Assembly: GCA_026014705.1 (NCBI GenBank) | Contig: JAOZHU010000025.1 | Coordinates: forward strand, 62,001 to 126,000 | Direction: 5' to 3' | Source: Candidatus Bathyarchaeota archaeon | GTDB lineage: Archaea > Thermoproteota > Bathyarchaeia > Bathyarchaeales > Bathycorpusculaceae | DNA length: 64,000 bases | Part shown: positions 888 through 41,293 of the stretch, one piece after another | Layout: every line of letters starts with the position of its first letter | Numbering within the stretch: the stretch's first letter is position 1 | Notes under the pieces: generated by a model | Seen by the model: only the letters and a program-made list of their open reading frames with translations | What the model was told of the DNA's origin: nothing | Database searches by the model: none | Program-made: the position numbers and the translations under genes

Positions 888-1808
888 ATGGAAGAAAGAA
901 AAACAAGAACCTTTTGGTCTCCTAGAAAAAGCACATTCCTAATAGTGACATTGGTATTCCTACTCATTTTTTCAATAGGATTCGGCTTCTCCATGCTGGT
1001 CTCAGTCGGAGTGGGACACGCCGTAATACTGGTGGACCCACTCACGAAATCAACAAGCGACCCGACGATTGGACCAGCATACGTACTGAAGGCACCGTGG
1101 GTTACCGCCGTTGATGTTTACTACGCAACTGACACGTTTGAAGACACAATCGCTTGTTTCTCGTCAGACCAACTTGAAATGCAAATCCAAATCCTAGTCC
1201 GATGGTCACTGAACCCAGACAAACTGAAAGACCTCTACAGCAACTACCCCAGACTAAACTATAAACAAGCAGCAATCGAATCCATAATGGCAGAAACCAT
1301 AAGACTAGTAACCAAAAACTTCACCGCCCTCCAAACAATAGAATTCCGAGACATAGTAAGAAACCAAATCGAAACCACCGTCCGCCAAGAAGTAGATTCT
1401 GAACCGTCACTCGCTGGAGCCCTAACCAACTTCGAATTCGACCTGAGAAACATAGGTTACCCCGCAAAATACACCGCTGCCATAGAAGACAAACTCGTAG
1501 CTGAGCAACAGAAAATCCAAGCAGATTTCGAGAAGCAACGGATACTGATATTAGCCAACGCAACAGCCCAAGAAGTAATAATCAAAGCCTCGGGCGAAGC
1601 AGAAGCCAAAGTAATTGAAGCAAACGCGACAAGGCAAGCCATTGAACTCGTCTTATCCTCAGTAGGGCAAAATGGAAACGAAACACGAATCGCCGAACTT
1701 TACCTGTGGGTCCAAGCACTACAGAAAATCGCGCCCGACATAGACATACTCATAGTAGGCTCAGAAGGAACCCCCGTACTAATCCCAGCAAACTCCACCA
1801 AACCCTAA
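888..1808 (+). CDS. SPFH/Band-7 (prohibitin-like) membrane protein
   Basis: ATG at 888 after aggaggtg RBS; N-terminal TM then SPFH-like domain and EAEAKVIEANATRQAIE coiled coil. Confidence 0.8.
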   Translation: MEERKTRTFWSPRKSTFLIVTLVFLLIFSIGFGFSMLVSVGVGHAVILVDPLTKSTSDPTIGPAYVLKAPWVTAVDVYYATDTFEDTIACFSSDQLEMQIQILVRWSLNPDKLKDLYSNYPRLNYKQAAIESIMAETIRLVTKNFTALQTIEFRDIVRNQIETTVRQEVDSEPSLAGALTNFEFDLRNIGYPAKYTAAIEDKLVAEQQKIQADFEKQRILILANATAQEVIIKASGEAEAKVIEANATRQAIELVLSSVGQNGNETRIAELYLWVQALQKIAPDIDILIVGSEGTPVLIPANSTKP

Positions 1809-14857: not shown

Positions 14858-14896
14858 CCAGTTCCACGAGCCTTTAGTTCCCTTTTCCGAGTTTTT

Positions 14897-15014
14897 GTGG
14901 GTTTGCTGAGGCTCCGAGCGGTTTAAGGAAGGAGAAAGAGAGGAATGAGACTCTCTAGAAACAACAGCTACTACTGCGTAAACTACTTTTTTCGCTCAGA
15001 GCCCTTTCAGCCCC
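14897..15014. other. Structured element copy A (covarying terminal hairpin)
   Basis: Arms gtgggtttgctgaggctccgagcg / cgctcagagccctttcagcccc; similar elements at 18977 and 22299. Confidence 0.6.
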
Positions 15015-15094
15015 AATCAGTCGATGTTTAATCCATGATTGCGAATTGACTAGGAAAAAGAGGGAAGAGAGTACTGTATAGTTTTTGTGCATGG

Positions 15095-17650
15095 TTATTT
15101 CTTCCTGAGCAATAGTATTCCAACTATAGCCAATGCGAGTATCATCGCGATTCCAACGCCAATTATGGTCAAGGTATTGTCAATTGGTTGCGGATATTCA
15201 GGTGCTGCTGTTGCTGGAGGTGCTTCAACTGCTACTGCGTAGGTTTGAGCATATGAGGGCCAGTAAGATTCAGAACCAGCGAAAGTTGCTATGATAGTGT
15301 ATTTGCCTGATATGTCTGGTTCCCAAACAAAGCCGAAGGTGCCGCTTGCATCCGTTGTGGTTGTGCCTATGCTTCGGTAGTTGCCGTTAGCGTCAAGTAC
15401 ATTCAGTGATACCGCGACGCCAGTGACTTCTGTCGGGCATGGCTTCTGCATGTAAACGTACTGCATCCATTCGCTCATGCTTGCGTCAGAGACCGCTGGG
15501 ACTCCGTTTGGAAAACGTGCTGCCTGTTCTTTTTGCTTTGTGCCAGCAGAGATATCGATCACTGTGCCTCTTATGATTGCGCTGGTTCCCACCGTGACAG
15601 CAGTCATAGGAGCCTCAACCGTAGTGGCGCTGGGACCCTTGCCGAAGCAGTATATTTGTTCGTCAAACAAGTTGAGACCTACAAAGTAGCCATCTGCGAC
15701 AGCGTAACCCCATGGAACATACCCTGAGGCACCGTGGAAAGGTATAGTCCATATTTCATCTCCAGTAGTGGCGTTGAGGCAAATTAGTGGCGCGCCTTTC
15801 CAGTATGGTGCTCCGCATGAGTGCTCATTCGTGTGCAAGTAAAGTTTTCCGTCTGCTACCGCGGCAACGCCGAGTGGGTAGCCTGGATAAGGCGAAGCGA
15901 ATCCAGCCATAGTAGCAGTGCTGTAGTTCCAGACTTGGCGTCCAGTTTTTGTGTCATAGCAGTAGACCATTCCAGAGTAACCTGTAGAGTAAAGCTTGCC
16001 ATATGCCCTGGTCTGTGTCCAAATCGAGCCGCCTCCTCCAGCGTATATGTTGAATGGGTTTTCTGAGGGCGTTGTCCACAATAGGCTTCCATCGTCTAGG
16101 CTGTACCCTGAATATGACACTGTCTCTTTATCCCAGAAAATGAAGACGCGGTTCACGGGGTCTATGAATCTGAAGCTTCGCGTGAGGTTGCCTGCTGGGG
16201 GGTCATAGGTCTTCATCCACAACAACGAACCTCTTGAAGTTGGCTTCAAGCTTATTGCCCACAATGTGTAAGGCGCCCATGATGTACCGACGGCAGGTAA
16301 AGAACCGTTTCTGCCCAGCAGAACATCGTCATAGATAACGTCGAGGGCGGTTGCTCCTGTTGGCAACCAAGGTATGGAAACGTTCCATGTGTAGGCATCG
16401 CTTGAGTCAACTGATTTTCCGATTGGTCGCCATTGATTGAAGCTTGTGCTCGTGAAATCTTTCGGGTCGGTTGAACCTGTTATGTTGTGGGCCGCAGTGT
16501 TGTTCCATAAAGCCAGCCATTTTCCTGACACGTTAATTACATACCTCAATATCTCGCCGTTGGGACCGTAGACTTCAGTGCCTGAGGGAACGTTGGTGAG
16601 GTTGAATAACCATTTTCCTGTTAGCGGATCATATGCATTAGCGAAGTTGGTTGTCCATAAGTAGCCATTCGGGACGGCGCCGTGCTGGTTCATTGATTCG
16701 TAATCGTAAAGTTGACCGAATGATGGCGCTGTTGATCCTGAGACTCCGAGTTTGTCATTGTACCATATGGTTTCTCCTGTACGCAAATCTACGCAGATGT
16801 ATCCTCCGTTTCCGCCTGTGCTGCCAAAAGGCAGGGTGTAATAGAGTCGTCCGTGTATAACTATTGGGTTCTGAAATTGTCCTTCATATTGTGTTCCATC
16901 GTAGTATGTTATGCCATCTACGCCTGTCCTTGTTCCTCCGACAACGCCTCCGTCCCTTATTGGCTTAGTCCACATTATATGGGGACTATTGGGCGCTGTG
17001 CCGTCCATTTGAACCTTCTGAACCACGTGAGCGCCAGCTAGCCAGTTCGAGGATACTTTGTACCATTCTTGGTTTTGTCCTTCTATTGGTCGCGTCCAAT
17101 ATTCTGTTGGAAGGGGATAGATCGGCGGATCAGGTATTGCTTCCTCCTGTACAGTCAGGGTTGCTGTTGCACTGCTGGTCAAGTAAGTGTCATTTTCGTA
17201 AACGCTGGTTGTGCCTGTGAGGCCCGTGGGACCGATTCGTGATAGTACTTGCTCTGGAAACGTGAACACGAAGGTATATGTGCCGCTTTGGGTGGGCGTA
17301 TATTGGTACCATCCGCTTCCCACAGGGTCGGATGTGAATGGACCTAAGGTTTCTTTGGTGCCATCAGGTTTTGTTACTTCTATCTTGAGATTTCGCCATC
17401 TGTCACCCGCGATGCCTGCTGCTGTTGGCATTACTTTGTCAAGCCAAAACACCAGCGTTACCGTTTGTCCGACACCTACAGGGTTTGGTGAAGCAGTGAT
17501 GTAAGCATAAGTGGGTATTTGCCATGCTGGGGTGTGTGAGTTTGCGATTTGCAGAGTCATTGAAGCAGTGATTGTTAGCACCAGAAACAATGCAATTGCT
17601 GTTTTGGTTTTGTTGGCTGTACCTGTTGTTTTGCTTCTTGAAGTTAACAT
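15095..17650 (-). CDS. PQQ-like beta-propeller repeat surface protein, signal peptide and C-terminal TM anchor (paralog 1)
   Basis: 851 aa; signal peptide; VDLRTGETIWYN, YDTKTGRQVWNYS propeller repeats; TM + LLRKK. Confidence 0.85.
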   Translation of the reverse strand: MLTSRSKTTGTANKTKTAIALFLVLTITASMTLQIANSHTPAWQIPTYAYITASPNPVGVGQTVTLVFWLDKVMPTAAGIAGDRWRNLKIEVTKPDGTKETLGPFTSDPVGSGWYQYTPTQSGTYTFVFTFPEQVLSRIGPTGLTGTTSVYENDTYLTSSATATLTVQEEAIPDPPIYPLPTEYWTRPIEGQNQEWYKVSSNWLAGAHVVQKVQMDGTAPNSPHIMWTKPIRDGGVVGGTRTGVDGITYYDGTQYEGQFQNPIVIHGRLYYTLPFGSTGGNGGYICVDLRTGETIWYNDKLGVSGSTAPSFGQLYDYESMNQHGAVPNGYLWTTNFANAYDPLTGKWLFNLTNVPSGTEVYGPNGEILRYVINVSGKWLALWNNTAAHNITGSTDPKDFTSTSFNQWRPIGKSVDSSDAYTWNVSIPWLPTGATALDVIYDDVLLGRNGSLPAVGTSWAPYTLWAISLKPTSRGSLLWMKTYDPPAGNLTRSFRFIDPVNRVFIFWDKETVSYSGYSLDDGSLLWTTPSENPFNIYAGGGGSIWTQTRAYGKLYSTGYSGMVYCYDTKTGRQVWNYSTATMAGFASPYPGYPLGVAAVADGKLYLHTNEHSCGAPYWKGAPLICLNATTGDEIWTIPFHGASGYVPWGYAVADGYFVGLNLFDEQIYCFGKGPSATTVEAPMTAVTVGTSAIIRGTVIDISAGTKQKEQAARFPNGVPAVSDASMSEWMQYVYMQKPCPTEVTGVAVSLNVLDANGNYRSIGTTTTDASGTFGFVWEPDISGKYTIIATFAGSESYWPSYAQTYAVAVEAPPATAAPEYPQPIDNTLTIIGVGIAMILALAIVGILLLRKK

Positions 17651-17786
17651 TTTCTTTTTTCTCCTATTTTCCGTGAGAGAGCACTATTCCGGCGGCACAT
17701 ATTTATAATTTTCCACAAGACGCCAAATAAGCAAAAATAATTAGTCTAAATTAGCCAGTTTGTTGATAGTTTCCACATAAAAAGGA

Positions 17787-17800
17787 GCAGTGCAGACTGC
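17787..17800. promoter_or_regulatory. Inverted repeat GCAGT-GCAG-ACTGC just upstream of TATA-like atatttatt (candidate Lrp operator)
   Basis: Identical sequence at 21984-21997 upstream of the collapsed Lrp remnant. Confidence 0.45.
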
Positions 17801-17843
17801 AGCATATTTATTCAACCGCGACAAGTTAATAACCAGACCAACA

Positions 17844-18317
17844 ATGACCCATAGAGTGGAAATTGACGAAATCGATGTTAAAATTCTGCGTGAATTAATA
17901 AAAGATGCACGCAAAAGATTGAAAGATATTGCAAAAGACTGCGGCATATCATCCACAGCCGTATTCAATCGAATTAAGCGTCTAAAAACTGCAGGAGTAA
18001 TAACTGGAGCAGTTCAGTATGTGAACATGGAACGCTTAGGGTATTTGTTTCCTGCATCTATAGGGATTAGTCTGAATTCTAATCAAGAACCACAGGTCAT
18101 CAGAATAATTAAAGAAAGAGCGAATTTAATTGCATTTGCTCCAAGTATTGGAAAATCTGACCTAACCATATTCTTGGTTGCAAAAAGCATGAATGAATTG
18201 GACTATTTGAAACAACAATTGAAAAAGGAGGCTGGTATAGAGAGAATCACCATCGATCTCTGGACCACGCCATGCCTCAATTTTGAGAACCTTAACCTAC
18301 AACCAATAAGAGCTTGA
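17844..18317 (+). CDS. Lrp/AsnC family transcriptional regulator
   Basis: IDEIDVKILRELIKDARKRLKDIAKDCGISSTAVFNRIKRLKTAGVITG HTH; RAM-like C-terminus. Confidence 0.88.
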   Translation: MTHRVEIDEIDVKILRELIKDARKRLKDIAKDCGISSTAVFNRIKRLKTAGVITGAVQYVNMERLGYLFPASIGISLNSNQEPQVIRIIKERANLIAFAPSIGKSDLTIFLVAKSMNELDYLKQQLKKEAGIERITIDLWTTPCLNFENLNLQPIRA

Positions 18318-18796
18318 AAGATATGGACGAAATTGACCTGCAGATAATAAAAGAATTAACAAGAAACCCGCAGATCTCGTTCTTAAAAATTGCAAAAAAA
18401 ATAGGTGTTTCACCGATAACAGTACAAAGGAAACACACGAAAATGAAGGAAGAGAGAACACTGCTCCAATCCTCAATAACGATTGATTTGTCACAACTGG
18501 GGTACAACGGCAAAGCATACATCATGATAACCAATGCACCGAACCAAGAGCGAACAACCACCATGGAGGCTCTTAGACAAATGCAAGACGTATTTATATG
18601 CACCGAAATTTTAGGAAACTTTGACCTGCTAGCAATCGCAGCAGTCAAAAACTTAAGGAGCATAATTTGTTTAGTAAATTCAATCAGAAAAATACCGAGC
18701 GTTGATCGAGTGGAAATTGCCTTGACGGCAGACACCGCATTTCCAGTTAGCAGAGATTTTAATACACTATTATCTAATATCAATGAATGCCCATGA
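18314..18796 (+). CDS. Lrp/AsnC family transcriptional regulator (second, overlapping)
   Basis: MDEIDLQIIKELTRNPQISFLKIAKKIGVSPITVQRKHTKMKEE; overlaps previous stop. Confidence 0.88.
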   Translation: MKDMDEIDLQIIKELTRNPQISFLKIAKKIGVSPITVQRKHTKMKEERTLLQSSITIDLSQLGYNGKAYIMITNAPNQERTTTMEALRQMQDVFICTEILGNFDLLAIAAVKNLRSIICLVNSIRKIPSVDRVEIALTADTAFPVSRDFNTLLSNINECP

Positions 18797-18976
18797 CACA
18801 AACTCGAACTCGCACAGATTAGAGCTAAATTCACTTATCTTGTGCTCCTGAGAGGACTACTCTTTTGCATTAATCTTGCGCATGCTGTTACACGGAAACC
18901 CAGACGCATAGAAGAACTCAACGAGACGCCAAAAACATGGCTGCTGTACACCTCTTGGTTTTCTTTGTCGTTTCGC

Positions 18977-19097
18977 GGGGTTTGCTGAGGCTCCAGGCGG
19001 CTATATTGGGAGAAAAGAGATGATGCAACCCCTACGAAACAACAGCTACTGCTGTTACTGGTTGTTGCTTTTTTCCGCCTGGAGCCTATTCAGCCCC
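18977..19097. other. Structured element copy B (covarying terminal hairpin)
   Basis: ggggtttgctgaggctccaggcgg / ccgcctggagcctattcagcccc, 12 bp perfect GGCTCCAGGCGG stem; inner AACAGC/GCTGTT hairpin. Confidence 0.65.
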
Positions 19098-19168
19098 AAT
19101 TTTTCTCCTGTTTTTGTTTCTGCTCGAGACTAAGAAAGGGGAAGGTTAATGGTGGCATCGCTGTGCGG

Positions 19169-21847
19169 CTACTTCTTTATCCAGATTCCAACGAGGATTA
19201 TTGCTATCAATAGCATGATTCCTACGCCTATAATAGTCCATGTCGGGTCAATTGGCTGCGGATACTCTGGCGGTGCTGTTGCTGGCGGCGCTTCTTCTAC
19301 GCCGATGGCAGTTTCTGCGTATGATCCGTAATAGGACTTGGAGCCTGCGAACGAAGCAATAATAGTGTACTCGCCTGGTACTTCTGGAGTGAACATCTTC
19401 TTGAACATACCTGTAGCGTCGCTTGTGACTGTATCGATGTGGACGAAGTTGCCGTTCGGGTCAAGAGCGTCGAGAGCTACTTCCACACCTCTGGCGTTTG
19501 TTGGATATGTTTGCTGTTCGTATAGATATTGCATCCAAGCCTGCATGTCGTCATCAGATATCGCTGGAACACCATTCACGTAGCCTAATTGCTCGGCGAT
19601 TGCTTTTGCGCCTGCGCATTGATCGCTGACTGTACCCTGAATTAAAACGCCGTTGCCATGAACCGAAACCTGTGGTGAAGCAGTGACGGTGGTTGCACTT
19701 GGACCCTTGCCAAAACAGTATATTCGGTTATCGTAGAAATTGAGACCGACCACGTAACCGTCTGCGACTACTGCGCCACTTCCAGAGCCCATTCCTGCTC
19801 CCCAGAACAAGCACTTCCACAGTTCCACTCCGTTGGACGCGTCTACGCATCGTAGGTATGAGCCGCGCCATAATGGCTGTGTAGGCGAGTGCTCGCTTGA
19901 GGTCAAGTAGATTTTGCCGTCTGCGATGGCTGTTATACCGATTGGGAAGTTGCCGTATGGAGACTCGTAGCCTTCCTGCGAGGCTGTGTAGTTCCATAAG
20001 ATCTTTCCAGATTTAGCGTCGTAGGCTATCATAACGCCGCCGTAGCCTGTTGACAATAGCATTCCTTTGTAAATGTTTGTGCTCATTCCGTAGAAGTTCC
20101 ATGGTGATTCAGGTTCGCTCTTCCAAACTTGTTGTCCTGTTGCTAAACTGTAACCCCATCTTGTCCTTGTTTTGGTCTCAGTGAAATAGAACATTCCGTT
20201 TTCAGGGTCAACTGTCGGTGCGCTAACTGTTAGGTTGCCTGCTGATGAAGGTGGCGTGTAGGTTATGTTCCATAACAGCGTTCCTATTTGTCCCGGTTTC
20301 AGACTTAGGCACCATAAATGCCCTTGTCTCACACCGTCTTCATTGTTTCTTCCCTCAGGTCCTCCAATGATGAATTCATCTTGGCGAATTGCTCTAATTG
20401 GCGTGGTTACTTGCGGCGAAATCGTGATATTCACGGAGAAGCCTTTGCTGCCGTCTATTGACGCATTTAGGAACGGCCTCCAGCACCAATCAGAATTTCG
20501 CAGTGGATATGCCGAATTCGGGTCATTGTAAAACATCTCAATTGCGCGCGTTGAGTTCCAAATAGTCAAGCGTTGTGCGCCGCCCGTGTTTGGGCGTCCA
20601 TACATTGTTGTGCCAATGTTGTAGTATAGTATGCTTCCGTCTTTTCCGTAGACATTTGTGCCTAAAGTCGACACGTTAAATACGTTAAGCAACCAGTTAC
20701 CTGTCCAAGCATCAAACATCATCCATGTTGCATTGTTATTAGCCCATGTCCGACCACCGCTTGATGGCGTACCCGTTGGCGCGCCAGGACCGTAGGTGCT
20801 CCATAGATAGGGACGTCCGCCATGTTCGTTAGGCGACTCGTAGTTCAGTATTTGACCGAAGCTTAGCCATTCTTGAAGCAAGGCACCTGAAGCGTCGCTG
20901 CGAAGAGCATAATTTACCGGACCAGTAGTGTTGTGGAAGTATAGTGTTTCGCCAGTGTATAAATCGACACAATACCAGCCCATTTTTGGTTGAGCTTGGT
21001 GATTGTAGTACAATCTTCCGTTTAGAATTATTGGCGGGTCGAAGCTGAGACCATCATAGTGTGCAGTTTGATAGCCTATTTCGCCATAGCGAGCGTCCAT
21101 GACGCCGCCTGCCCATAGTGGTTTAGCCCACATGATGTGGGCGCTTTCAGGTCCTGGTCCGTAGCTGTAACTGGTGGTTGTGCCGCCGGAAGCTCCTGAA
21201 GGATGCTGTTGTGCAGCGCCTGCAAGCCAGTTGGCTGCGAGGCAAGCCCAATTCCTGTTTGCTGAGTTTATTGGCCGCATCCAAAACTGTGTTGGCAGAG
21301 GCGTCTCTGGCCATGGCTGTATTTGTTCTTGTTGAACTATTAGATAGAGCGGTTCACTTTCGCTGGCCTTTGCTGTGTCGTTAATGTATTCGGCTCCTTG
21401 CATTGTAGCTGTTGTTCTGCCAGGGTATAAGGGCTCACCAGTAATTTTTTTCTCAGCCATCTTGGCTATTAATTTGTATGTGCCCACTTGGGTAGGTGTG
21501 TATGCAGCCCATCCGCTACCTACAGGATCAGACGTGAATGGGCCGAGGGTTTCCTTGGAGCCGTCGGGTGCTGTTACTTCGACTGTGTAGGTCCATCTGT
21601 CACCGTATGCACCAATTGCGGTAGGAGGAACCTGATTGCTCCAAAAGACAAGAACTACTTCTTGATTGACACCTATTGGATTGGTTGTGGTGGATAGGTA
21701 GGTCCATGTTGGTATTGTCCATGCTGGGGTGTGTGCGTTTGCGATTTGCAGAGTCAGCGAAGCAGTGATTGTTAGCACCAGAAACAGTGCAATTGCTATT
21801 TTGGTTTTGTTGGCTGTACCTGTTGTTTTGCTTCTTGAAGTTAACAT
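19169..21847 (-). CDS. PQQ-like beta-propeller repeat surface protein (paralog 2)
   Basis: 892 aa; signal peptide nearly identical to paralog 1 (MLTSRSKTTGTANKTK.AIALFLVLTITAS); same domain layout. Confidence 0.85.
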   Translation of the reverse strand: MLTSRSKTTGTANKTKIAIALFLVLTITASLTLQIANAHTPAWTIPTWTYLSTTTNPIGVNQEVVLVFWSNQVPPTAIGAYGDRWTYTVEVTAPDGSKETLGPFTSDPVGSGWAAYTPTQVGTYKLIAKMAEKKITGEPLYPGRTTATMQGAEYINDTAKASESEPLYLIVQQEQIQPWPETPLPTQFWMRPINSANRNWACLAANWLAGAAQQHPSGASGGTTTSYSYGPGPESAHIMWAKPLWAGGVMDARYGEIGYQTAHYDGLSFDPPIILNGRLYYNHQAQPKMGWYCVDLYTGETLYFHNTTGPVNYALRSDASGALLQEWLSFGQILNYESPNEHGGRPYLWSTYGPGAPTGTPSSGGRTWANNNATWMMFDAWTGNWLLNVFNVSTLGTNVYGKDGSILYYNIGTTMYGRPNTGGAQRLTIWNSTRAIEMFYNDPNSAYPLRNSDWCWRPFLNASIDGSKGFSVNITISPQVTTPIRAIRQDEFIIGGPEGRNNEDGVRQGHLWCLSLKPGQIGTLLWNITYTPPSSAGNLTVSAPTVDPENGMFYFTETKTRTRWGYSLATGQQVWKSEPESPWNFYGMSTNIYKGMLLSTGYGGVMIAYDAKSGKILWNYTASQEGYESPYGNFPIGITAIADGKIYLTSSEHSPTQPLWRGSYLRCVDASNGVELWKCLFWGAGMGSGSGAVVADGYVVGLNFYDNRIYCFGKGPSATTVTASPQVSVHGNGVLIQGTVSDQCAGAKAIAEQLGYVNGVPAISDDDMQAWMQYLYEQQTYPTNARGVEVALDALDPNGNFVHIDTVTSDATGMFKKMFTPEVPGEYTIIASFAGSKSYYGSYAETAIGVEEAPPATAPPEYPQPIDPTWTIIGVGIMLLIAIILVGIWIKK

Positions 21848-22041
21848 TTTCTTTTTTCTCCTATTTTCCGTGAGAGAGCACTATTCAAACGGCACGTATT
21901 TAAAATTTTCCAGACGAAGCCAAATGAGCAAAAATAATTCTGTAATTTAGTTAAAATAATTGATAGTTTCCACATAAAAAGGAGCAGTGCAGACTGCAGC
22001 ATATTTATTCAACCGCGACAAAGTCAATAACCAGACCAACA

Positions 22042-22140
22042 ATGACCACAAAAGTGGAAATTGCCTTAACTTTGAATAACGCATCCCCAGTTGACAAGGA
22101 GTTCAATAAGCAACTTCGTGATAACAAGAAATTTCCATGA
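22042..22140 (+). pseudogene. Collapsed Lrp remnant: N-terminus of Lrp1 fused to C-terminus of Lrp2 (32 aa)
   Basis: MTTKVEIALTLNNASPVDKEFNKQLRDNKKFP* versus MTHRVEID... (Lrp1 start) and ...VEIALTADTAFPVSRDFNTLLSNINECP (Lrp2 end). Confidence 0.75.
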
Positions 22141-22298
22141 CAACGGCTCTAACCTGCAGAAAGCAGACGCCAAATTAAATCAGCTCATGCAATAGTATTT
22201 CACTGTCACAGCTTGAAAACCAGACGCACCCAAGAATCCAACGACCCCCAAAGAAAACAACGCTTCTGCACACCTCTGGGTTTTCTTTGTCGTTTCGC

Positions 22299-22417
22299 GG
22301 GGTTTGCTGAGGCTCTGAGCAGGCGAAACTATAGGAGAAAAGGAGAAAACGCAACTTCTGCGAAGCAATAGGTGCTGCGTTAGTTGCTTTTTCCGCTCAG
22401 AGTCCCTTTTCAGCCCC
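22299..22417. other. Structured element copy C (covarying terminal hairpin)
   Basis: ggggtttgctgaggctctgagc / gctcagagtcccttttcagcccc; inner GCAACT/AGTTGC. Confidence 0.65.
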
Positions 22418-22483
22418 ATTTTTCTCCATGTTTTGCTTTATTGACTAAAAAAGGGGGGGATTTGATTGATTTTTGTTTGGTAG

Positions 22484-25132
22484 CTATTTTTTCCTGAGGA
22501 TGAGCAAACCAACGATGGCGATTGCGATGATTATGGCGATTACAGCGTACACGAAATGCATAGTATAGTCAAACGGTTGGGGATACTCAGGTGGGGGAGA
22601 CGCAGGTGGGGCTTCTTCGACGCCTATGGCGGTTTGCGCATAGGAACTGCCGTAGGATTTGGAGCCTGCGAATGTGGCGATGATAGTGTATTCGCCTGGA
22701 ACTTCTGGCACGAACATTTTCTTGAACATGCCGCTCATGTCGCTGGTTACCGTGCCAATGTGCACAAAGTTGCCGTTAGGATCAAGAGCATCTAACGTCA
22801 CGTCAACGCCCGTGGCGCTGGTTGGGCATGGTCGCTGCATGTACAAGTATTCCATCCACGCTTTCTGGTCTGCATCAGCAATTGCGGGAACGCCGTTTAC
22901 GTAGCCCATTTTCTCAGCAAGCGCCTTAGCGCCAGCGCACTGGTCAGTCACATAACCCTCTATTAGCACGCTGTCGCCGTGCACTGAAACCTTCGGTGGC
23001 GCTGTAACTGTAGTGGCGCTTGGTCCTTTACCGTAGCAGTATATTCGGTTGTCGTAAGCATTGAGGTCAACGATATAGCCGTCTGCAATACTTGGTCCGT
23101 TACCCCAGTGCGTTATTGTCCATATTTCCTTTCCGTCGGTCAAGTTGACGCATCTCAGCATTGCACCGCGCCATGCAGGTTTGCTGGGAGAGTGCTCACT
23201 ACTGTACAGGTATGCTTTGCCGTCCGCAACAAACGCTAGAGAAATCGGGTAGTTGGCGCCATAGGGAGAGTCGAAGCCGATGGAAGTCGCTGAGTAGTTC
23301 CACAAGGCTTTGCCTGTCTTGATGTCCCAAGCACGCAGCACTCCGCCCATGCCACAGTACAAAAGTTTGCCATCAGCAATTGTGGATGCGCCGAAACCAG
23401 TGGAATAGAAGTCATATTGCGAATCAGAGGGCGGAGTTGGACCCCAAACGAGTTCTCCTGTGGCGAGACTGTAGACCCACTCTTGCATTGTCTCAGCGCA
23501 ACGAATAGAGAAGTAACCATCGTCTATGCTGAAAGCACTCGGCGAATAAGTCAGGTTTTTGTGCCCCATATGGTTGGTGCTGTAGGTGCGACTCCACAGC
23601 AAGTTTCCTTCTTGACCCGGTTTCAGGCTTATTGCCCACATTGCGGTTACATCGTTAGTGCCTGTAGCTCCGAAGCCGGCGAAACCGCTTTTGCCAACCA
23701 TGATCTCTTCGCCTACAACCCATTGTGGAGTGCCAGGCAAGTTCTTGCCAGCCAATGATACGTTCAAAGAATATCCGTTGTTGCCGTCAAACACTGTGCC
23801 CACGTAGGGTCGCCACATCCAGTATTCATTGCTTGAATAGGAAGGTTTGTACCAGATGGCCCTGCTTGAGTTCCAACATTGCAGATAGTAGCTGCGCGTT
23901 GGACCATACGGCGTGAGGTCCACAATACGGTAGATCAGCAAGCTTCCATCTTTGCCAGTTGCAGACGTATCAGCACCGAACATTTCAACAGATGATGAAG
24001 GCACATGGTTTATGCTGCAGATGTAGTTGCCAGTAAACGCATCGTACATATCCCACACGTTGTCAGTAATCTCGTATAGACCGTACCCTGGAATGAACAT
24101 AGAGCCTGTGACGTTAGACCATGTCGACCACAAGTACGGGAAGCCTCCGTGCTGGTTAGGCGATTCATAGTCGTATATTTGACCGAAGCTAATTCCCGGC
24201 CATGTCCCGGAATCAGAGAAAACGCCGCCAACAGTTCCTGGTCGAGTAGCGTTGTGGAACCAATATTCTTCGCCTGTACGCAAGTCTATTCAGTACCAAC
24301 CGTATCTAGGTGGCGTTTGCACGTTGTAGTAGAGTCTGCCGTTGATGATTATTCCGCCTGCTGCACCGAGACCGCCCCAGTAGCCTTCGTAAGATAAACC
24401 GTCATAGTAGGACAAGTCGCCAAATTGGTCGCCCATGATGCCGCCTGACCAATATTCTCTTGTCCACATTATGTGAGCGCTTTCGGGTCCTTTGGTGTAT
24501 TTGGGATAGGTTCCTGTGAGGCTTGCTCGTCCAAGATAGTTTCCTGCCACTTCCCACCAGCCGTGGTTGACCGCGTTGATTGGACGCGTCCAGTAACCTT
24601 CGGGAAGAGGAGTCTCAGCGTAAGTTTCTATTGGTTGCTCTTGCACCGTGAGTGTTACGGGAGCGCTTTGGCTAGCTTTGTATGTATCGTTAATGTAGAC
24701 ATCGCTGCCGAAGAAGTAGCCGCCTGGAGGAACAGGTTGCCCGGTGAGTTTGTCACCGGCAAATTTGAAAACGAAAGTGTATGTGCCGACTTGTGTAGGC
24801 GTGTATGAAGTCCAGTAGCCGCCCACAGGATCAGATGTGAATGGCCCGAGGGTTTCCTTTGAGCCGTCTGGCTTCGTGATATCCACGGTGAACCCGTCCC
24901 ATCTGTCGCCGTAACCGCCCACAGCCGTAGGCGGATACACGTTAAGCCAAAGGTTGACACCTACTGGTTGATTCACGCCTACAGGGTTTGGTCCAACTGC
25001 TATGTAAGCGAAGGTTTCAACTTCCCACGCTGGATAATGTGCACTAGCGAGAGGCAAAGCAAAGCACGAAAAAGTCAGTGCCAGAAACAAAGCAAGCGCC
25101 GTCGCTTTTTTTGCCTATTGAGGTTTTCATTT
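22484..25132 (-). pseudogene. PQQ-like beta-propeller repeat surface protein (paralog 3), interrupted by in-frame TGA (24290-24292) and a +1 frameshift in A7 of the signal peptide
   Basis: ORFs 22484..24283 and 24290..25090 are in the same frame; paralog-like sequence on both sides of TGA (GWY*IDLRTGE); upstream ATG AAA ACC TCA ATA GGC frame rejoins only if one A is removed. Confidence 0.75.
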
Positions 25133-25235
25133 TCTTTTCTCCTTTTTTAGGCGAATTCCTTATCTTCGTCTTTGCTATATAACATTTTTCTCAACGCAGC
25201 CATTTATATCCAAATCATGCACTTTTCGCATTAAG

Positions 25236-25448
25236 ATGGCAAATAGGATCAAAATGACAGAGATAAGCGCTCAACTACTTCGGGTACCCAATCTCGCAGT
25301 ATTCTTGAAGCTCTTAGGATCATACGATCTAAATGTTGATGTTTTCGTAACCAATTTTGAAGATTTGTTCAAATCAATGTACGAGATACGGAAGATTTCA
25401 GGAATCAGCCTCATAGAGATGCACCTAACCATAGTTTGGGAAAAATGA
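25236..25448 (+). CDS. RAM-like (Lrp C-terminal domain) fragment without HTH
   Basis: NLAVFLKLLGSYDLNVDVFVTNFEDLFKSMYEIRKISGISLIEMHLT aligns by eye with Lrp2 VFICTEILGNFDLLAIAAVKNLRSIICLVNSIRKIPSVDRVEIALT. Confidence 0.6.
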   Translation: MANRIKMTEISAQLLRVPNLAVFLKLLGSYDLNVDVFVTNFEDLFKSMYEIRKISGISLIEMHLTIVWEK

Positions 25449-37884: not shown

Positions 37885-37962
37885 GCTGTTACATTTCTCC
37901 TTTGAGCGCTTATAGGCTTTAGGAAAATTAAAATACAACTAAATAACATTATCCCCTTCAAG

Positions 37963-38060
37963 GTTTTCGGGGAGCTGGGGAAAAGTGACCCGGCTGAGAG
38001 GACGGCTGAATTGCTGTCGACCCAATGAACCTGAACCAGATAATACTGGCGGAGGGAAAA
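37963..38060 (+). promoter_or_regulatory. TPP (thiamine pyrophosphate) riboswitch / THI box
   Basis: GGCTGAGAG ... ATGAACCTGAACCAGATAATACTGGCGGAGGGAAA; P1 ttttc/gaaaa, P3 gctggg/cccggc, extra hairpin gacggc/gctgtc. Confidence 0.92.
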
Positions 38061-38066
38061 GAAACA

Positions 38067-38594
38067 ATGACAGAAGCTAGGCTAAATGCTATAAAAGTCA
38101 GAGTTCTCGCAGAAGCAACAGTTTTCATCGCGTTGACCATAGTGCTGAAGGATGTCTTGCCGCCGATTTACCATATGCCGCAGGGCGGTTCAGTCACCAT
38201 TGCTGGGCTAGTGCCGCTCATTTGGTTCGCGCTGCGCAGAGGCGTCAAATACGGAGTTTTCGCTGGCTTCGTTTACGGGCTGATTCACGCGTTTCTTCCA
38301 GGCGCTTACATAATGCACCCAGTGCAGGGATTGCTGGATTACCCGTTGGCTTTCGCTGCTTTAGGCTTGGCTGGCGCTTTCAAGAAACCCGCTGTAGTCG
38401 GCGTTGCAGTGGGCATCATTGGAAGATTTCTGTGCTCGTTCGCTGCAGGCATAATATTCTTCACCTCGTTCTCCATCGACGGCGTGGTTGGCTCAGCAAC
38501 ATACAACGGCGTCTACTTGATTCCCGAGTTCATCATTACTGCAGTCGTCATTTACATTCTGCTGAAGCGAAAACTGTTGACAATATACATGTAA
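38067..38594 (+). CDS. ThiT-like thiamine transporter (ECF S component family)
   Basis: MPQGGSVTIAGLVPLIWFALRRGVKYGVFAGFVYGLIHAF; downstream of TPP riboswitch. Confidence 0.85.
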   Translation: MTEARLNAIKVRVLAEATVFIALTIVLKDVLPPIYHMPQGGSVTIAGLVPLIWFALRRGVKYGVFAGFVYGLIHAFLPGAYIMHPVQGLLDYPLAFAALGLAGAFKKPAVVGVAVGIIGRFLCSFAAGIIFFTSFSIDGVVGSATYNGVYLIPEFIITAVVIYILLKRKLLTIYM

Positions 38595-41153: not shown

Positions 41154-41293
41154 CTCATTGTTGGGTTGTGGGGTTTGGAGACACTACTTTAGGGGGAGAA
41201 AGGGAGAGCGTGCAAAAAGGAAAAATTCTTCTCCAAACCATTCCACCCAACTTCACTACCTAATTCCCGTTTCCCCGCCCTTCAACCTCCTTC

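Follow-up and report, generated by a model that had tools for sequence, protein, structure and literature searches.

The window analysed here, a stretch of 64,000 nt, lies on one of the 44 contigs (C38) of a Bathyarchaeota genome of 1.99 Mb that is 96% complete. Protein searches retrieved relatives under the names Candidatus Bathyarchaeota, Bathycorpusculum and Bathyarchaeum. Open reading frames and profile searches delimit three units between 14.9 and 25.5 kb of this window (Table 1). As described in the original prediction, all three units share the same layout: an element, a minus-strand gene encoding a PQQ-like propeller protein and a plus-strand Lrp-related sequence that points away from the common intergenic region. 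Unit 1 carries the two intact Lrp/AsnC genes that had been announced, with an AsnC-type HTH above the cut-off in both and a RAM domain that is above the cut-off in lrp2 and below it in lrp1. Unit 2 retains only a 32-aa ORF. The RAM-like fragment reported for unit 3 is also present; it matches positions 70–125 of LysM and is 41% identical to residues 247–328 of a double Lrp encoded on contig C4 of the same genome.

Table 1. Features of the three propeller units and of the related element in the window.
Feature	Position	Strand	Evidence
Element 1 (structured), located 3′ of propeller 1	14890..15022	-	R1 106.4 bits; 73 nt past propeller stop
Propeller gene 1, 851 aa	15095..17650	-	Pfam PQQ_2 E=7.9e-11; ORF
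Patch common to units 1 and 2, from the lrp1 start across the divergent promoter to the end of the signal peptide; core 93–95% identical	17515..17865		Sliding identity; repeats D2, D4, D5
lrp1, Lrp/AsnC regulator, likely ATG 17844	17790..18317	+	HTH_AsnC-type E=2.2e-12; NCBIfam AsnC-like
lrp2, Lrp/AsnC regulator with RAM domain	18314..18796	+	HTH_AsnC-type E=2e-11; AsnC_trans_reg E=8e-7
Element 2	18969..19105	-	R1 106.8 bits; 64 nt past propeller stop
Propeller gene 2, 892 aa	19169..21847	-	PQQ_2 E=1.8e-9
32-aa ORF, apparent deletion product of a former lrp1-lrp2 pair	22042..22140	+	Join at AGTGGAAATTG; D4 repeat
Element 3	22291..22425	-	R1 111.5 bits; 59 nt past propeller stop
Propeller gene 3, broken	22484..25131	-	ORFs 22484-24283 and 24290-25090; stops within match
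Remnant (RAM domain) of a former double Lrp	25236..25448	+	LysM profile 70-125, E=5.3e-5
Look-alike element behind cdvC	41154..41256	-	R1 25.3 bits; pattern and synteny in relatives

The protein encoded by propeller gene 1 consists of a signal peptide, a PQQ-like propeller, a C-terminal Ig-like domain and a membrane helix. The PQQ_2 scores of the three propellers (42.5, 38.1 and 29.6 bits) all exceed the Pfam cut-off (27.6 bits), and this match relates them to the PQQ-like (BamB-type) beta-propeller surface proteins. They differ from these in being archaeal and secreted, each with a signal peptide as well as a membrane helix at the C-terminus, and in belonging to a family of about 20 paralogues in the host genome. 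Propeller matches were found in 28 of 61 relatives, several of which have 15 or more. The propeller sequence gave no match in PDB, and the predicted structure, with a pLDDT of 49.8 from an alignment of six sequences, is too poor to serve as evidence on the fold. A CCCCTTTTTT-like tract lies directly past the propeller stops of the window (15050–15095, 19130–19169 and 22440–22484). This tract is found at propellers both with and without the element and looks like an archaeal U-tract terminator placed ahead of the element.

Besides the Lrp remnants described in the original prediction, the propeller gene of unit 3 is broken too. It contains an in-frame TGA (24287–24289), where propellers 1 and 2 have a Cys codon, and its reading frame shifts at a run of seven A (A7) near 25106–25112, just past the start. 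Either of these might be a real lesion or an assembly error. A selenocysteine at the TGA was considered and is deemed unlikely, as no Sec system is known in this archaeal group and the gene also carries the second lesion. The A7 run might act as an on/off switch through slippage or, again, reflect an error of assembly.

The promoter and signal-peptide regions of units 1 and 2 are indeed nearly identical (93–95% over about 350 nt), and a 62-nt block beside the Lrp start (repeat D5) is 100% identical between them. According to sliding identity, this likeness drops to 55% at about position 17515, where the signal peptide ends. The propeller bodies of the three units are only 48–53% identical to one another, and copies 1 and 2 have their nearest relatives on other contigs (65% identity on C6; 64% on C18 and C20), so that the units do not stem from a recent triplication as wholes. 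Of the partly recent triplication proposed earlier, there remains a recent exchange of the promoter/signal-peptide patch, whose pattern would fit gene conversion or the exchange of bodies under a fixed promoter/signal-peptide head. The 32-aa ORF of unit 2, although present as predicted, does not correspond to a decayed domain. The 11-mer AGTGGAAATTG occurs twice in unit 1, 854 nt apart, at the start of lrp1 and at the end of lrp2, and the ORF of unit 2 is the exact join of this start to this end at the same 11-mer. Unit 2 therefore formerly had both Lrps, and its remnant, as read from the sequence, is the result of a deletion between the 11-bp repeats.

The search for adjacent propeller and Lrp genes suggested along with the original prediction detected Lrp homology (at most 700 nt upstream) at 14 of 83 propellers versus 2 of 211 control ORFs. 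Such adjacency was found in two families, and 12 of the 14 Lrps are divergent and located 140–262 nt from the propeller. Tandem or fused double Lrps also adjoin propellers in other genera, and were seen in four further genomes (G017, G048, G054 and G057). Fused and split versions of the double Lrp are found across the relatives; the C4 copy of the host genome is a fused one (348 aa; L094:6476–7522, plus strand) located away from any propeller. These proteins share AsnC-type HTH and RAM domains with the Lrp/AsnC regulators LysM and AsnC, from which they differ by their tandem or fused double organization and by their position, mostly divergent from a propeller gene. Some of the propeller-adjacent Lrps have internal stops, so that their decay at this place is recurrent.

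In the host genome, only one of the 20 assessed propellers (that of unit 1) has an intact Lrp pair, and one more (that of unit 3) has a fragment; no pairing was found at the 12 propellers assessed in G012, nor at the nine assessed in G032. The pairing of propeller and Lrp is therefore real, optional and frequently decayed, and it concerns a minority of copies, so that the attribution of its own regulator to each surface protein is not supported. The adjacency counts given above would agree with propellers switched each by their own amino-acid-responsive Lrp. Most propellers have no Lrp, those of units 2 and 3 have been destroyed, and the hairpin has a wider distribution than the pair of Lrps, which together make this model highly improbable. 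Nothing was found in favour of surface-antigen switching or of a response to amino acids.

The original prediction counted a hairpin among the components of each unit, where it is indeed found. This hairpin belongs to the propeller gene, at its 3′ end and on its strand, and it is the widespread and conserved component of the module, which the prediction overlooked. Read on the propeller strand, the element has the form GGGGCUGA-AA-GGCUC(...)GAGCC-UCAGC-AAA-CCC. It folds over ~125 nt into a stem of 10–13 bp above a conserved stem of 4 bp with two offset A-rich bulges on its flanks, and contains an inner hairpin followed by a 3′ pyrimidine tract. In an alignment of 25 copies, which were picked by their arm motifs and aligned without use of structure, both partners vary in 11 of 21 pairs. 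This gives a covariation score of 0.279, versus 0.155 for shuffled alignments (none of 500 reaches the observed value) and at most 0.128 when the partners are slid; the conserved core is partly selected by the choice of copies on arm motifs, and the covariation sits in the variable upper stem. The element thus has the covarying stem expected of a conserved structured RNA family. Rfam gave no gathering-level match at the elements and none that was credible at E ≤ 5. A model of the element (R1) finds it in 19 of the 61 relatives (E ≤ 0.01) and in 49 of 260 genomes of the class (E ≤ 0.001), mainly from two families.

Most of the examined copies (69 of 96) are located directly downstream of a propeller stop and on the propeller strand, at a distance of 32–94 nt, except for a single second copy that lies 199 nt away. 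Copies without a gene also exist. At one locus (L163, element at 1201–1316, minus strand), a propeller-like promoter with its ribosome-binding site almost abuts the element, as if the gene had been deleted between them. REP sequences (PMC12306157) are likewise repeated intergenic hairpins found just past ORFs. The element differs from them in being longer and covarying, in being bound to one gene family and one strand and in being antisense to the starts of this family; as 69 of its 96 copies follow one gene family on a fixed strand, instead of being scattered behind unrelated genes, it was not assigned to REP.

No promoter signal was found beside the element on either strand, so that read-through from the propeller gene would be the simplest source of an RNA. 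This is weakened by the U-rich, terminator-like tract that sits between the stop codon and the element. Furthermore, selection on a single RNA strand should favour G.U over A.C mismatches, and the stem columns show no clear preference (98 G.U versus 81 A.C), which counts against an RNA function (the tRNA control, 7 versus 2, is too small to calibrate this ratio). Such nearly equal numbers would be expected if the element acted as DNA, for example as a site of recombination or exchange through which propeller bodies pass from one promoter to another, or as a transcription terminator that works in both directions between convergent genes. The copies without gene and the patch exchanged between units 1 and 2 would also fit this scenario. 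However, it is at the 5′ end of the gene, and not at the element, that exchange is observed, propellers devoid of element have the same U-rich tract past their stop, and a DNA site would leave unexplained both the antisense content of the element and its match between lineages (see below). A function as DNA is therefore considered unlikely.

The inner 3′ strand of the element is antisense to the region of the propeller family that includes the Shine-Dalgarno sequence, the AUG and the first codons: it contains CAU...UCUCUUUUCUCC, i.e. the complement of GGAGAAAA...AUG. Weak R1 matches outside the true copies lie for the most part antisense to propeller starts. The controls were genes of the same genomes that have a Shine-Dalgarno site and an ATG, compared over the region from −25 to +3. 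In six of six genomes, the reverse complement of the elements matches the starts of propellers other than their own above these controls (p from 8e-9 to 0.008), and a weaker excess extends to the first codons in five of the six. Propellers without element fit equally well (z of 3.24 vs 3.35), and secretory-like control genes show almost no excess (z of 0.19).

The motifs themselves vary between lineages. In family f1, GGAGAA is present in 21 of 35 propellers, 31 of 37 elements and 13 of 175 controls; in family f6, it is found in none of the 23 propellers, none of the 33 elements and 10 of 81 controls, and GAAGG occurs there in 14 of 23 propellers, 20 of 33 elements and 6 of 81 controls. The control genes hardly differ between the two families. 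The tract of the element thus tracks the Shine-Dalgarno type of the propellers between lineages, a relationship that rests on one deep split and some weaker cases. In G010, a genome without elements, the propeller starts mostly carry GGAGG.

The fit of the element to its own gene is no better than that to the paralogues, and even slightly worse (permutation p of 0.73–0.99); a strict autoregulation in cis was therefore dropped. Duplex energies (−24.4 kcal/mol with the own gene, −27.3 with other propellers and −22.3 with controls) were dropped as a sole measure, as they are dominated by composition and give a weak signal; alignment scores and motif counts were used instead. A local pseudoknot in which the tract would pair with the flank just 5′ of the stem was also rejected: no pair-specific fit was found (p = 0.22–0.25), and the GAAGG type is absent from the flanks in f6.

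Taken as a whole, these data would be explained, with a probability that we put at about 0.45, by a 3′-UTR RNA able to mask the translation starts of propellers family-wide, in trans rather than only in cis, and accompanied by an optional Lrp pair. Its action can be imagined as follows: read-through of the propeller message would produce the element as an RNA, whose exposed anti-start strand would pair with the start regions of propeller mRNAs across the family and not of its own message alone; this pairing would block the loading of ribosomes and thereby limit the amount, or the choice, of the propellers that are made. The divergent Lrp pair would act as a local regulator of transcription that has been repeatedly lost, as in unit 2, where the deletion between 11-bp repeats would have removed it. 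The fit to the own gene, which is not better and is slightly worse, was counted against the model.

Two known systems come close to this scheme. In Staphylococcus aureus, pairing between the 3′-UTR and the 5′-UTR of the icaR mRNA was shown to block translation (PMC3868564). As in icaR, the motif located in the 3′-UTR is complementary to a Shine-Dalgarno region, and the complementarity between 3′ element and start region goes beyond chance in the six genomes and in the motif counts; a preference for pairing within the same message was not detected (permutation p of 0.73–0.99). Whereas icaR is a single bacterial gene regulated in cis through a short UCCCCUG motif (PMC3868564), the sequence described here is a folded element associated with a large archaeal paralogous family, and its anti-start strand is longer and has no preference for its own gene. 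In Methanosarcina mazei, a single-stranded region of sRNA162 masks a ribosome-binding site both in cis and in trans (PMC3510493). This archaeal RNA is free-standing, unlike the element, which is repeated in 3′ position behind the members of a gene family.

The same complementarity would be explained equally well if the opposite strand was the active one, the hairpin then enclosing a ribosome-binding site of propeller type together with a start codon and a tiny ORF, which would serve as a decoy or as a leader peptide. A Shine-Dalgarno sequence, an ATG and a short ORF can indeed be read on this strand in most copies, and the lack of G.U preference on the propeller strand agrees with such a role. 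However, several copies (e.g. those of unit 3, L091 and L093) have no start codon, neither the length nor the frame of the ORF is conserved, and no promoter signal precedes it. As the orientation of the element is also fixed relative to the propeller gene, activity of the opposite strand appears quite improbable.

A sister element was found behind cdvC, which encodes a Vps4-like AAA protein with an MIT-like domain and belongs to an ESCRT cell-division operon. The exact stem pattern has one site per genome in 20 of the 61 genomes, and the reversed control pattern has no match. At all 15 loci checked (L265–L279), the element lies 19–68 nt past the stop of cdvC and on the same strand. It shares the two-bulge plan (GUGG-AAA-stem / stem-CCAC-AA), includes a conserved pyrimidine tract (CUCUCCUUUCUCCCCCUC) and also occurs in genomes without detected propellers. 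This tract was not found to be antisense to the start of its own operon, neither at the operon start that was read nor by a tract window scan, and the tract of the propeller element may thus have another job. Both elements could be 3′ RNA hairpins bound by a protein involved in stability or processing; this protein would bind the tract, whose resemblance to an anti-start sequence would be secondary. The conserved plan and tract behind cdvC, including in genomes without detected propellers, would favour such a function, as would the absence of match to the cdv start that was checked. It would not account for a propeller-element tract that follows the Shine-Dalgarno type of the propellers and that also covers their start codon and, more weakly, their first codons, and it is likewise judged to have a low probability, below that of a DNA site.

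Among open-licence papers, no report was found of a family of hairpins that is tied to paralogous genes and contains their start region in antisense; these papers also gave nothing relevant on surface proteins, Lrp or cdvC RNA elements of Bathyarchaeia. The masking of propeller starts leads to a testable rule: whichever propeller message is taken, its start is expected to pair with the inner strand of an element. It is little known how the surface protein to be displayed is picked in uncultured archaea that have large families of them, and the element bears on this question. A more speculative extension, which we hold to be rather doubtful, would be a new archaeal class of RNAs, namely 3′-UTR hairpins with an antisense copy of the translation start of a gene family, through which paralogues would silence one another and leave one or a few surface proteins dominant; the cdvC hairpin would tie synthesis of the surface layer to cell division through a shared binding factor. 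The look-alike behind cdvC makes this link between envelope and division testable. Among the 49 element-bearing genomes (of 260) are close relatives of Bathyarchaeum tardum, a cultivated archaeon with an S-layer and an outer sheath around its cells (PMC10477458).

Elsewhere in the window, a TPP riboswitch (Rfam, 61.6 bits; 37958–38074, plus strand) overlaps the start of an ORF for a small membrane protein at 38025.
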